Positions 5,506 to 9,447 of a stretch of DNA of 64,000 nucleotides are shown here, piece after piece. Both the position numbers and the translations under genes were made by a program. Positions within the stretch are counted from its first letter, which is position 1, and each line of letters starts with the position of its first letter. Origin of the DNA: Natronomonas salina (lineage in GTDB: Archaea > Halobacteriota > Halobacteria > Halobacteriales > Haloarculaceae); assembly GCF_013391105.1 (NCBI RefSeq), contig NZ_CP058335.1, positions 3,286,001 to 3,350,000 of the forward strand, written 5' to 3'. The notes under the pieces were generated by a model, which saw only the letters and a list, made by a program, of their open reading frames with translations, ran no database searches and was not told the DNA's origin.

Positions 5506-6426
5506 ATGAAGCGAGGGCCACGTCGGCTTGCGCGACGCGCCTACGAGCGGCTCCTCGAACGGGAGATCACCGGCGCACCGACGCACGTCGCCGTCATCCA
5601 GGACGGCAACCGCCGGTACGCACGCGAGAACGGTGCCGAGAAGACCGAGGGCCACCGGGCCGGCGCCGACACGACCGAGCAGGTGCTGCAGTGGTGTGCC
5701 GACATGGGCATCGAGGAGCTCACCCTCTACGCCTTCTCGACGGAGAACTTCGAGCGCCCGCCCGACGAGCGCGAGGCGCTGTTCGACCTCATCAGCGAGA
5801 AGCTCCGGAGCTTCGCCGACCACGAGGAGGTCCACGACCGGGAGGTCCGCATCCGCGCCATCGGCGAGACCGACCTGCTCCCCGAGCGCGTCCGCGAGGC
5901 CATCGAGTACGCCGAGTCCCAGACGGCCCACTACGACGAACTGTTCCTCAACGTCGCGCTCGCCTACGGCGGCCGCGCCGAACTGCTCGGCGTCGCCCGG
6001 GACGTCGCCCGGGAGGCCGCGACCGGCGACCTCGACCCTGCGGAGGTCACCGTCGACGAGATCGAGGACCGACTCACAGCCCGCTCGACGCGCGCGGTGG
6101 ACCTCATCATCCGCACCGGCGGCGACGAGCGGACCTCGAACTTCCTGCCGTGGCACGCCAACGGCAACGAGGCGGCCGTCTACTTCTGTACGCCCTACTG
6201 GCCGGAGTTCTCCCGCGTCGACTTCCTCCGGGCCATCCGGACCTACGAGTCGCGCCAGGAGTCGTGGCGCCGGACCCGCGTCAAGCGCGCCGCCGCGCTG
6301 CTGCGGGCGGTCGGCGACGTCGAACTCGAGGAGGCGCGCCGCGTCGTCGGCCGGTTCCGCGACTCGGTGCCGGACGGCGAACTCGAAGACGTCGAAGTCG
6401 CCGAGCCGGATCAGTCAGCGGACTGA
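5506..6426 (+). CDS. uppS1: Cis-prenyltransferase (polyprenyl diphosphate synthase), catalytic copy
   Basis: This enzyme adds isopentenyl diphosphate units in cis to make long polyprenyl diphosphate, the precursor of the dolichol-type carrier used for archaeal N-glycosylation and S-layer assembly. The 306-aa protein has the catalytic DGNRRYA motif (D33), FSTENFERP, and the C-terminal IPP-binding block IRTGGDERTSNFLPW. All positions needed for catalysis appear intact. It is longer than bacterial UppS (~250 aa) because of the N-terminal helix and an acidic C-terminal tail. A second, motif-less paralogue lies 1 kb downstream on the other strand, which suggests a heteromeric enzyme. Confidence 0.93.
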   Translation: MKRGPRRLARRAYERLLEREITGAPTHVAVIQDGNRRYARENGAEKTEGHRAGADTTEQVLQWCADMGIEELTLYAFSTENFERPPDEREALFDLISEKLRSFADHEEVHDREVRIRAIGETDLLPERVREAIEYAESQTAHYDELFLNVALAYGGRAELLGVARDVAREAATGDLDPAEVTVDEIEDRLTARSTRAVDLIIRTGGDERTSNFLPWHANGNEAAVYFCTPYWPEFSRVDFLRAIRTYESRQESWRRTRVKRAAALLRAVGDVELEEARRVVGRFRDSVPDGELEDVEVAEPDQSAD

Positions 6427-6484
6427 CCGCACCCGACTTCGGAGCCGGAGTGTGTCCGCAACTCTCTCCCTGCGAGAACCGGGG

Positions 6485-6649
6485 CTACTCCACCGGCTCG
6501 ACCGTCTCCTCGCCGCAGTGCGGGCAGTGCTCGTGGTTCTCCGAGACGGCCCGCTCGCAGGAGGTACAGGCGTACGCTCGCCCTTCGCCCCGCTTGAACG
6601 CCCGCTTGGTCTCCTCGAACTTCTCGCCGGCTTTCCTGAAGATGCCCAT
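6485..6649 (-). CDS. Small zinc-ribbon protein
   Basis: This is a 54-aa protein starting MGIFRKAGEKFEETKRAF at the ATG ending at 6649. The N-terminal half is a basic helix. The C-terminal half is a zinc ribbon with paired cysteines ACTSCERA and CPHCGEE, a double-CxxC knuckle. Upstream in-frame sequence is not protein-like, so the internal ATG was chosen. Small stand-alone zinc ribbons are common in haloarchaea and mostly uncharacterised. It is convergent with uppS1. Confidence 0.8.
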   Translation of the reverse strand: MGIFRKAGEKFEETKRAFKRGEGRAYACTSCERAVSENHEHCPHCGEETVEPVE

Positions 6650-6818
6650 CACCTGTGGTTGGGTAGCACACCGAATAAGCGTTGGGCAGCCGCCGGTCGA
6701 GGCGCTCGAAACCGTCGCCGTCGGCGGTAGCGCAGCCGCGACGGCGAGCCGGGTCGGGACAGAGTATGTGAAACGCTGGCGAACACGTATACACGTCCGG
6801 GCCCAATCTAGCGATATA

Positions 6819-7088
6819 ATGGACGAACCCCAGCAGGAGGACATCTTCTACCGGGACTTCGACACGGACGGATTGCGACCGGGCGTCGCGGTCGTCGAAG
6901 CTATCGGCCGGATCGACGAGCGCGACCCGGCCGAGATGACGCCGCTGTGGGGCTGTATCGACGGGATGCTCGAACATCTCTTCTCCGACCCGCCGGCTGC
7001 CGAGGCGGACATGGAGGTCGAGTTCAGTTACGAGTCGTTCCGGATCACGGTCTCCCAGGACGGCACCGGCAAGTTCGTCAGGACGTAG
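6819..7088 (+). CDS. HalOD1 output-domain protein
   Basis: This 89-aa soluble protein is a stand-alone HalOD1 domain, a small haloarchaeal module named as an output domain because it is often linked to signal-transduction proteins. The visible family pattern is VVEAIGRIDERDPAEMTPLW followed by CIDGMLEHLF and, near the end, VEFSYESFRITVSQDGTG. ATG at 6819 is used because the in-frame sequence upstream is antisense to the zinc-ribbon gene and not protein-like. It is monocistronic and ends 15 bp before the tandem repeat block. Biochemical function is unknown. Confidence 0.85.
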   Translation: MDEPQQEDIFYRDFDTDGLRPGVAVVEAIGRIDERDPAEMTPLWGCIDGMLEHLFSDPPAAEADMEVEFSYESFRITVSQDGTGKFVRT

Positions 7089-7102
7089 CCGCGCCGGCGG
7101 CC

Positions 7103-7414
7103 CGGTCTACCGCCCGAACCTGAGGGAGACTCGCTCCACTCGTCTCCCGGGGCTCGGTCTACCGCCCGAACCTGGGGGAGACTCGCTCCACTCGTCTCCC
7201 GGGGCTCGGTCTACCGCCCGAACCTGGGGGAGACTCGCTCCACTCGTCTCCCGGGGCTCGGTCTACCGCCCGAACCTGGGGGAGACTCGCTCCACTCGTC
7301 TCCCGGGGCTCGGTCTACCGCCCGAACCTGGGGGAGACTCGCTCCACTCGTCTCCCGGGGCTCGGTCTACCGCCCGAACCTGGGGGAGACTCGCTCCGCT
7401 CGTCTCCCAGGGCT
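7103..7414. repeat. Six tandem copies of a 52-bp hairpin repeat
   Basis: Copies start at 7103, 7155, 7207, 7259, 7311 and 7363. Copies 2-5 read identical, copy 1 has one change, and copy 6 has two. Each unit holds a perfect 7-bp stem GGGAGAC/GTCTCCC with an 11-nt loop (TCGCTCCACTC). The first ~20 nt of each unit (CGGTCTACCGCCCGAACCTG) closely resembles the end of the neighbouring uppS2 gene at 7429-7447 (CGGTCAGCGTCCGAACCTG). The block lies between the 3' ends of convergent genes, so an amplified bidirectional terminator derived from the uppS2 tail is the simplest reading. No spacers are present, so it is not CRISPR. Confidence 0.97.
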
Positions 7415-7431
7415 CGGACGCTTCCCGTCGG

Positions 7432-8040
7432 TCAGCGTCCGAACCTGCGCTGGCGCTCCTGGAACTCCCTGACTGCCCGCAGGTAGTCGCGCCGGCGGAA
7501 GTCCCGCCAGTTGACGTCGGTGAAGTACAGTTCCGAGTAGACCGACTGCCAGATGAGGAAGTCCGAGAGCCGCTCGGCGCCGGTCTTGATGACGAGGTCC
7601 GGCGGCGTCTGGAAGACGAGCCGCTCCTCGATCTCCGACTCGTCGACGCCCGCCGGGTCGAGGTCGCCGGCGGCGGCGTCCTCGGCGATGCGGCGGACGG
7701 CGGCGGCGAACTCCTCGCGGCCCCCGAGGCCGATGCTCACCTGGACGGGCGCATCGGCGGCGGCGTCGGCCTCCGGGCCGCGGACCGCGACCTCCCGCGG
7801 GCTCTCGAGGTCCGAGAGCGCCGACCGGAGCGTCGGGACGGCCGCCTTGTCGAGGACGCTCACGTAGATGAGCACCCGCTCGGCGCCGGTCTCGAAGGCC
7901 CACTCGAGGAACGACGCCAGGGTGTCGTAGGCGCCCTGCTCGAGGAGGTCGTGTTCGGTGATGACGAGCGCGACCTGCTCGGGGACGTCGGCGTCGCTCG
8001 TGCGGACGCGGGTCGCCAGATACCGGTCGTACAGCCCCAC
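7432..8040 (-). CDS. uppS2: Cis-prenyltransferase paralogue lacking the catalytic motif
   Basis: The 202-aa protein is clearly UppS-like in its C-terminal half ([18 protein letters not shown], then [12 protein letters not shown] and the terminal RRFGR). The N-terminal catalytic DGNRR motif is replaced by VITEHD, and the IPP-binding loop is one residue shorter than in uppS1 ([11 protein letters not shown]). The frame is open throughout, so this is not a simple pseudogene. In eukaryotes DHDDS pairs with the non-catalytic NgBR/Nus1 subunit. A similar accessory role beside uppS1 is my inference. It is divergent from the DUF92 gene and flanked downstream by the 52-bp repeats. Confidence 0.85.
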
Positions 8041-8090
8041 GTTCGCGTGTTATCCTGGAGTCGCCTGAACGTATCGGTCCCCTTCGGGAA

Positions 8091-8100
8091 GGTTAAGTGG
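8091..8100 (+). promoter_or_regulatory. TATA-like box of the DUF92 gene
   Basis: GGTTAAGTGG is centred about 27 nt before GTG 8122. This spacing fits a leaderless transcript and is the main reason for choosing that start. Confidence 0.5.
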
Positions 8101-8121
8101 GCGACGACGGAATCTCGGTTC

Positions 8122-9447
8122 GTGACTGGCGAGGTACGTCGTGCCGTCGGCTTTCTGCTGATCGGAGCCCTCGCGTTGCTCGCGCCGGCGCTCGACGGCC
8201 GGACGAGCGGGTCGCTCGTCGCCGTCGGCACCGTGGTTCCCTTCGCCCTCGTGGCCGCCGTCGCGCTCGTCTCCACGGAGGGGCCGCTGTTCGAACTCTT
8301 CGCCCACGCCGGCGACCGCACTGAGGGACGTCTCTACGGCCTCGCCTCGTTCTCGCTGGCGGTCTCCGGGCTGGCGGTCCTCATCGTCGCCTTCGACCTC
8401 CCGATCCCCGCGTTCGTCGCGGGCGTGTTCGTCCTCACCACGGGGAACCTCGGGCAGGCGGTCGTCTCGCGGTACGACCCCGACCTCGTGGTCGGCACCA
8501 CCGCGTTCGCCGTCGCGGGGACGCTCGGCGCCGTCGCGGCCATCCTCGTCGCCGGCCTCCTCGGCGCCGGGACGTTCGCGCTGCCGCTCGTGGCGTTCGT
8601 CGCCGCCAGCGGCGCGCTGCTCGGGGCGCTCATCCGGTCGGTGCTGTACGTCCGCGACGACTCGCTGGTGTTGCTCTCGGCGGGGCTGCTCGTGTGGTTC
8701 CTCCTGAGCCTCGACCCGCCGAGCGTGACCGGCCAGCGCGTCGCCGTCGGCTTCGCGGTCACCTTCGCGCTCGGCTACCTCGCCTACGCGCTCGGGACGG
8801 CCTCGGTGACCGGCATGTTCACCGGCGTCCTGCTAGCGCTGTTCGCCGTCGTCCTCGGCGGCTACGGCTGGTTCGTCCTGCTGGTGACGTTCTTCGGGCT
8901 GGGCGGGCTCTCCTCGAAGTACCGCTACGAGGAGAAGCTCGACCGCGGCATCGCCCAGCGGAACGAGGGCGCCCGCGGCAGCGGGAACGTCCTCGCCAAC
9001 TCCGCGGTCGCGCTGGTCGCCGTCGTCGCCTACGCCGCCTCCGGGCTAGCCGGGATCGACCCGGCGGTCTTCCGGCTGGCGTTCGCGGGCGCCGTCGCCG
9101 CCGCCCTGGCCGACACGTTCTCCAGCGAGTTCGGCGGGCTCTTCGACGACCCGCTGCTCATCACAACGTTCGAGCGTGTCGACCCCGGCACCGACGGCGG
9201 CGTCACCTGGCAGGGCGCCGTCGCGGGGCTGGCCGGGTCCGGCCTCATCGCCCTGCTCGGCTGGGGGTTCTTCGACTACGGTCCGCTGCCGGCGGTGACC
9301 GTCGCGGTCGCCGGCGGCGTCGGGATGACCGTCGACAGCCTGCTGGGGGCGACGCTGGAGGGCCACCACCTCGACAACCAGGGCGTGAACCTCCTGGCGA
9401 CGCTGTCGGCCGGCCTCGTCGCCGGGGCGGTCGCGCTGGCGCTGTGA
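8122..9447 (+). CDS. DUF92 / TMEM19 family integral membrane protein
   Basis: The 441-aa protein has about ten to twelve hydrophobic segments. A conserved cytosolic-type block GLGGLSSKYRYEEK at about residues 265-278 is followed by AQRNEGARGSGNVLAN, and later by ADTFSSEFG near residue 330; these are DUF92 landmarks. Plant VTE6, a DUF92 member, is a phytyl-phosphate kinase, so the family may phosphorylate isoprenoid monophosphates. Divergence from uppS2 and proximity to uppS1 make a polyprenyl-phosphate substrate plausible, but this is inference. GTG 8122 was chosen because a TATA-like box lies 27 nt before it and the sequence further upstream is antisense to uppS2. Its stop overlaps the GNAT start. 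Confidence 0.85.
   Translation: MTGEVRRAVGFLLIGALALLAPALDGRTSGSLVAVGTVVPFALVAAVALVSTEGPLFELFAHAGDRTEGRLYGLASFSLAVSGLAVLIVAFDLPIPAFVAGVFVLTTGNLGQAVVSRYDPDLVVGTTAFAVAGTLGAVAAILVAGLLGAGTFALPLVAFVAASGALLGALIRSVLYVRDDSLVLLSAGLLVWFLLSLDPPSVTGQRVAVGFAVTFALGYLAYALGTASVTGMFTGVLLALFAVVLGGYGWFVLLVTFFGLGGLSSKYRYEEKLDRGIAQRNEGARGSGNVLANSAVALVAVVAYAASGLAGIDPAVFRLAFAGAVAAALADTFSSEFGGLFDDPLLITTFERVDPGTDGGVTWQGAVAGLAGSGLIALLGWGFFDYGPLPAVTVAVAGGVGMTVDSLLGATLEGHHLDNQGVNLLATLSAGLVAGAVALAL

Follow-up and report, generated by a model that had tools for sequence, protein, structure and literature searches.

Copies of gene ends spaced by hairpins behind uppS2 and other haloarchaeal genes suggest repeated replacement of gene ends

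In the stretch of the Natronomonas salina genome analysed here (64,000 nucleotides, hereafter the window) the gene uppS2 is followed by a tandem array of hairpins, and each unit of this array carries a copy of the end of the gene itself. This raises the question of how the end of a protein-coding gene comes to be repeated behind its own stop codon. Rows of hairpins found behind uppS2 and other haloarchaeal genes suggest that gene ends have repeatedly been exchanged for new ones, with the former ends staying in place behind them, and the array of the window would be one instance of this wider turnover.

Anatomy of the array and its surroundings

TRF reported a repeat at positions 7094 to 7417 with a period of 52 bp, 6.2 copies, 98% matches and a score of 611, far above the other 17 TRF rows of the window. 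Six units start at 7103, 7155, 7207, 7259, 7311 and 7363 and together span positions 7103 to 7414. Counted against unit 2, units 1 to 6 differ at 1, 0, 0, 0, 0 and 2 positions, respectively, so that units 2 to 5 are identical, as a preliminary description of this locus had stated; the near-identity also fits the recent amplification proposed there. Read on the uppS2 (minus) strand, each unit consists of two hairpins, A followed by B. Hairpin A, with the arms GGTTCGG/CCGAGCC, holds a copy of Phe-Gly-Arg-stop (TTCGGGCGGTAG; 7107 to 7118, 7159 to 7170, 7211 to 7222, 7263 to 7274, 7315 to 7326 and 7367 to 7378, minus strand). The hairpin B nearest to the gene (7384 to 7408, minus strand) is formed by GGGAGAC, an 11-nt loop (GAGCGGAGCGA) and GTCTCCC, and the remaining ones (7332 to 7356, 7280 to 7304, 7228 to 7252, 7176 to 7200 and 7124 to 7148, minus strand) confirm the 7-bp stem and 11-nt loop described for every unit. 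The uppS2 stop codon itself sits within a hairpin A of the long type (7411 to 7445, minus strand) with a 12-bp stem (arms 7411 to 7422 and 7434 to 7445) and an 11-nt loop. Aligned by eye, the start of the unit matched 7429 to 7447 at 17 of 19 positions with one gap, in agreement with the preliminary description, which had overlooked that this matching part is itself a hairpin on the uppS2 strand. The present end of uppS2 (TTCGGACGCTGA) is a synonymous variant of the unit copies and not identical to them. An origin of the array by duplication of the gene end together with its terminator, as previously proposed, was thus borne out insofar as the units carry an uppS2 end, and failed insofar as this is not the end of today.

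RNA folding of the array yielded -208.5 kcal/mol for the uppS2 strand (z -5.66, a value inflated by the six near-identical units) and -168.1 kcal/mol for the opposite strand (z 0.01). The covariance models of Rfam 15 gave no match up to E=1 across positions 6400 to 8200. A 345-bp query across the array found a single locus in the genome, besides five weak hits on the B part. Among 20 genomes of the genus the gene-end 14-mer had 15 exact matches, of which coordinates placed 12 at uppS2, and its reversed control had none in the same genomes; the palindrome TTYGGNCGNTAGNCCRAA had 39 matches in 146 genomes, with 35 at uppS2 3' ends by coordinate. The 17-nt core of hairpin B occurred at 8 further sites in the window's genome. 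Its dispersal touches a point that the preliminary description had raised, namely that a unit scattered over unrelated loci would indicate a mobile repeat: the whole unit is confined to one locus, and the core of hairpin B is not. The apical motif was present in 24 hairpins with stems of at least 5 bp in 464 kb of the window's genome, six of them within the array, and the reversed motif in none over the same 464 kb. A viral origin was considered and set aside; the A pattern occurred in two viral contigs, by eye both times inside what appear to be other genes.

The gene uppS2 (7432 to 8040, minus strand) encodes a protein of 202 aa of the cis-prenyltransferase family with NgBR/NUS1-like extent that ends in QRRFGR and the stop. 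Domain PF01255 covered residues 97 to 201, and the RxG motif lies at the extreme C-terminus, where R-R-F-G was invariant in 20 of 20 rows. In profile alignments residues 16 to 202 matched NUS1 chains and the C-terminal half only matched catalytic subunits. By its C-terminal RxG motif and its extent, UppS2 is on sequence grounds an NgBR/NUS1-like cis-prenyltransferase subunit. In the human complex the RxG motif of NgBR is described to build, together with its terminal carboxylate, the active site of the partner (PMC7573591). Like NgBR/NUS1, UppS2 ends in RxG plus one basic residue, and its profile match is near full-length; it differs in that its C-terminal half also matches catalytic cis-prenyltransferases, with better scores. 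A gene for a HalOD1-domain protein of 89 aa (6819 to 7088, plus strand; PF18545, E=2.7e-15) is convergent with uppS2; a search for paralogues of this protein gave no useful lead. The full-length cis-prenyltransferase gene uppS1 (5506 to 6426, plus strand; PF01255, E=8.9e-70) faces uppS2 directly in convergent orientation in many relatives, judged by the distance of the uppS1 end at 80 named loci. In the window a zinc-ribbon ORF and the HalOD1 gene (6485 to 7088) separate the two.

Gene-end copies downstream of uppS2 in haloarchaea

A survey of uppS2 yielded 110 loci, 97 of them nonredundant, for which 337 nt downstream were scanned for GTTYGGNCGNT plus stop. The sense strand of the 97 loci held 36 exact copies, whereas the antisense strand had none and dinucleotide shuffles gave 0.3; the copies are therefore not due to chance. 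One-mismatch copies numbered 22 sense, 3 antisense and 2.3 in shuffles. Copies spaced by hairpins, on the sense strand only, were found at 29 of the 97 loci, 24 identified through an exact copy (the last by a slightly wider pattern) and 5 through a one-mismatch copy (L026, L029, L041, L069 and L074). An exact match in L091 at 305 nt was excluded because it was taken to lie in antisense uppS1. The other one-mismatch rows, of which about 2 in total are expected by chance, comprised 8 from loci included before, 8 located at 298 nt or beyond that were taken as antisense uppS1 coding sequence, and one in L044 at 160 nt that was dropped as weak.

Arrays were present in Natronomonas, Halorientalis, Haloarcula, Halobacterium, Halorussus, Halogranum, Halobium, Halarchaeum, Halosegnis, Halorarius, Halomarina and unnamed lineages. 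On the UppS2 tree this distribution requires no fewer than 21 gains or losses, and starred branches force 15 of them; shuffled labels averaged 25 changes, so that the presence of the array is only weakly clustered. Recurrence at 29 loci with different stems argues against a single local event as the full account of the array.

Hairpins A are of two types, a TAG type that mostly has a 4-nt GNTA loop and a TGA type with an 11-nt loop. Following a short A, the next A was spaced at 43 to 59 nt (109 nt in one case); following a long A, at 56 to 66 nt. In Haloarcula and Halorientalis arrays short and long A alternate, and either may form the coding end. The array of Halorientalis persicus has the order short-long-short. 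Aligned from its coding end against H. regularis from the first non-coding copy onward, it is identical at 101 of 110 positions, and by this offset alignment the coding end of uppS2 moved by one unit between the two sister species. Such a unit shift is what uppS2 provides; our search found no clean empty site for this gene.

Both A types show clear covariation of the hairpin arms. At a position left unconstrained by the search, 30 of the 35 palindrome matches at uppS2 loci were Watson-Crick paired, compared with 15.7 in shuffles (0/20000), whereas none of the four matches outside uppS2 loci was. For the long type 4 of 10 pairs had double changes, with a score of 0.270 against 0.149 shuffled and at most 0.118 in slid controls. 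The stem sequences of hairpins B differ between genera, and 38 of 41 distinct segments had a stem of at least 6 bp (mean 7.5, compared with 4.7 shuffled); the B apical motif was found 22 times sense and twice antisense. Decay was also visible, with 13 of 40 uppS2 copies lacking a hairpin of 6 bp. A class-wide RNA signal of the sense strand was rejected, its z being the lower one in only 16 of 26 loci, though the signal is strong in the window's genome.

Gene-end copies at aspS, other protein genes and tRNA genes

Because copies and gene ends at uppS2 differ mainly at synonymous positions, other genes were scanned at the peptide level by comparing C-terminal residues plus stop with the downstream frames, later in five genomes with 400 to 464 kb each. 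Gene calls were crude ORFs, some of them spurious and some missed (uppS2 of G041 and the GNAT-type gene of L127). Antisense matches of at least 4 residues numbered 0 in the four sets first scanned and 0, 0, 0, 3 and 0 in the five genomes. Genome G041 had a copy of a thermosome gene end (DDVISSS and stop, 8 changes in 24 nt), of the AspRS end (FPRDRQRLSP and stop, 6 changes in 33) and of a dCTP-deaminase-like end (EFGGDQ and stop, 7 changes in 21). A restriction of recoded ends to uppS2 was thus rejected. Apart from uppS2 and aspS they are rare: these three, one of them aspS, were the clear cases of G041, uppS2 was the only one of G000, and G003, G022 and G027 had no clear case in the 400 to 464 kb scanned of each, with one weak match against three antisense in G022. 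Exact repeats at nine loci (L140, L141, L146, L148, L155, L158, L172, L108 and L213) were regarded as tandem or dispersed repeats of the ordinary kind and left out of the recoded ends, as were weak short matches in L171 (minus strand), L209 and L245. L140 (194 to 1000) is a 59-bp tandem repeat array of G003 that is open in several frames.

For aspS, copies of four or more C-terminal residues with the stop followed downstream in 14 of 29 loci and in 2 of 4 further haloarchaeal loci including that of the window's genome (L250), giving 16 of 33; L206 yielded no gene end and was excluded. Outside haloarchaea copies were found in 1 of 24 loci. An AspRS gene from outside haloarchaea (L254) carries a recoded VRLTP and stop directly after its stop codon. 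Fifteen copies in 11 of the 29 loci were detected by their first four codons (none antisense) and scored at codons 5 to 11. There, 75 changes were synonymous and 26 nonsynonymous, against an expected share of about 71% nonsynonymous. Three copies accounted for 23 of the 26 nonsynonymous changes, which we read as decay of these copies, other readings being possible.

Genomes G022 and G077 of one genus form a filled/empty pair at aspS, with gene bodies identical at 582 of 600 positions. The G022 gene ends in an insert of 112 nt that comprises a recoded version of the last 33 nt plus hairpins, and behind it the 33 nt that form the coding end of G077 follow unchanged, together with the flank (identical to the coding end and flank of G077 in 229 of 242 columns). 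The insert carries a recoded end and not a copy of the resident one, which argues against duplication as the full account. Inserts also appear layered: by eye, the sequence that forms the second unit in G066 forms the first in G054.

Haloarchaeal genomes contain the hairpin part of the aspS insert at dispersed sites. We examined 20 sites, five of which had tRNA genes, and at these five, copies of the tRNA 3' end, some of them partial, follow downstream spaced by hairpins (by eye) and with small changes such as GGTTCGAATCC to GGTTCAAATCC; having been picked through the hairpin, the five loci are uninformative on frequency. At the remaining sites, on crude ORF calls, no recoded end was found except for the aspS end of G107 (L296), which is followed by a further, changed end. 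A dispersed hairpin family (AGTCGCAGCCCGCG..GAGCAGGAACGTCT; L277-L296) has many copies in G110, G089, G030 and G093, some of which lie beside tRNA 3' ends that have displaced copies. In the window's genome the end hairpin of a GNAT-type gene (L127, 4820 to 4990, plus strand; GAGGCCTGAGCGAAGCGAAGGCCTC) recurs about 140 nt downstream. L100 (3380 to 3560, plus strand) holds a fresh tandem duplication of about 103 nt at the end of a glutaredoxin-like gene with a T-rich terminator.

Origin and possible role of the gene-end copies

We consider it rather probable that the array is a recently tandem-amplified unit of a gene-end-restoring, non-coding hairpin insert that accumulates at haloarchaeal gene 3' ends. 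Each unit would provide a working copy of the last codons and stop within hairpin A, followed by hairpin B; once added at a gene end, its copy would become the coding end and push the old one downstream. UppS2 and AspRS have strongly conserved termini (in UppS2 RxG and the terminal carboxylate, by analogy with NgBR), and probably only restoring units would survive. Displaced ends would differ by synonymous codons because an insert is tolerated only where it immediately provides identical terminal residues and a stop, a survival filter that we infer from the pattern. In the window's genome one TAG-type unit would then have been copied head to tail. Insertion or recombination may bring units in from other strains, with hairpin boundaries as the probable sites. 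Against an insert model counts that no integrase, transposase or reverse transcriptase was found tied to the inserts, and a unit of 52 to 112 nt is too short to encode one. More tentatively, the units might belong to an undescribed class of gene-less mobile hairpin units of 50 to 140 nt that invade protein and tRNA gene 3' ends by supplying a replacement end, with invariant-terminus genes keeping a stratified record of former ends and recombination sliding the stop codon among units.

Neutral local tandem duplication of the gene end plus terminator hairpin with later point mutations, the origin first proposed, now appears unlikely to us. Near-identical units in the window and in G003, exact gene-end repeats at other ORFs of G003, and the fresh duplication in L100, which demonstrates that such events occur, all speak for it; yet a non-coding copy should lose its codons, whereas the differences are many synonymous and few nonsynonymous, and the new aspS end of G022 is recoded although the gene body is 97% identical to that of G077. 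Integrative elements that restore the 3' end of their target gene are known from e14 in icd of E. coli, tRNA-gene islands and SCCmec in rlmH. The haloarchaeal inserts resemble e14-like elements in the synonymous new end, the old end downstream, a left boundary fixed in the last codons and the use of tRNA 3' ends, and the G022/G077 pair combines a recoded functional end, a displaced old end and an empty site in a relative. That the copies are cargo-less remnants of such elements, left by tyrosine integrases with att sites at tRNA and protein-gene 3' ends, is nevertheless improbable. Unlike e14-like elements, the haloarchaeal inserts have about 50 to 140 nt and no genes, are stacked and tandem-amplified, and occupy several unrelated targets without a common sequence, which one recombinase would not serve. 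Neither the 112-nt aspS insert nor the 52-nt units of the window hold an integrase or cargo between two ends, spacing at uppS2 stays at 43 to 66 nt (one of 109) over many genera with no longer intermediate, and 79 of 80 named loci had no far sense copy downstream (up to 2.5 kb each, shorter in a few). REP/BIME palindromes (PMC3733652) are likewise small clustered hairpins near gene ends, and the dispersed B core resembles them; the A part with its gene end differs in being nearly confined to its own gene.

The hairpins might also be a selected multi-hairpin 3' element of the convergent uppS2-uppS1 region, a terminator or mRNA stabiliser of which the gene-end copies are a by-product. Covariation and the conserved A-B-A layout fit this explanation. 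T-runs are the main terminator signal of haloarchaea. Haloferax terminators use T stretches (PMC7237163), and such a stretch is lacking here, with no T4 run in the 1131 nt that follow uppS2 on the same strand and one within 150 nt at only 2 of the 29 array loci. The same source reports 59% termination by one hairpin in a Haloferax reporter, and hairpin clusters are described to terminate in bacteria (PMC8355165). The array has the layout of such clusters, with hairpins less than 15 nt apart directly after the uppS2 stop codon. Like these clusters (PMC8355165) and Haloferax S12 (PMC7237163), it stacks hairpins of 7 to 8 bp right after the stop; unlike them it has the stop codon inside the first hairpin and repeats a coding end per unit. 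We nonetheless regard selection for structure as a somewhat doubtful origin, since 68 of the 97 loci lack the array, the same pattern occurs at aspS, thermosome and tRNA ends, and a need for structure would not by itself explain why the codon pattern is kept when B stems drift freely. Least probable of all is palindrome-driven template switching that makes and perfects functionless hairpins and copies. Correction of quasi-palindromes would yield covariation without selection, and in most loci the two strands fold about equally well, but this process explains neither the synonymous recoding of the displaced end nor the recurrence at particular genes. By analogy with bacterial hairpin clusters (PMC8355165), the stacked hairpins would most likely determine or shield the 3' end of the uppS2 mRNA, through termination or as a protective structure.

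Among the papers accessible without subscription, our literature search found no description of displaced or recoded gene ends in haloarchaea. If gene ends are indeed replaced by such inserts, the last codons of some essential genes would be exchanged again and again with the protein unchanged, and discarded ends would be fossils in age order from which the order of insertion could be read. This would point to an unknown route of recombination or mobility in archaea, would account for part of the hairpin-rich intergenic space of haloarchaea, and would mean that in haloarchaea gene ends and 3' UTRs are renewed much more rapidly than the proteins.

A separate dispersed element of about 200 nt with several hairpins was seen in L122 (17990 to 18190, plus strand), L136 (2170 to 2400, minus), L118 (10770 to 10960, minus) and L129 (16200 to 16400, minus). 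Its copies share the core CGCCCGACGACTA, CAGGAGGAGG, GCATATTTTCCCC, TTTTTGCC and GCAAAAAGTGGG, with stems that vary between copies, and it is a possible candidate for a structured RNA or a terminator.
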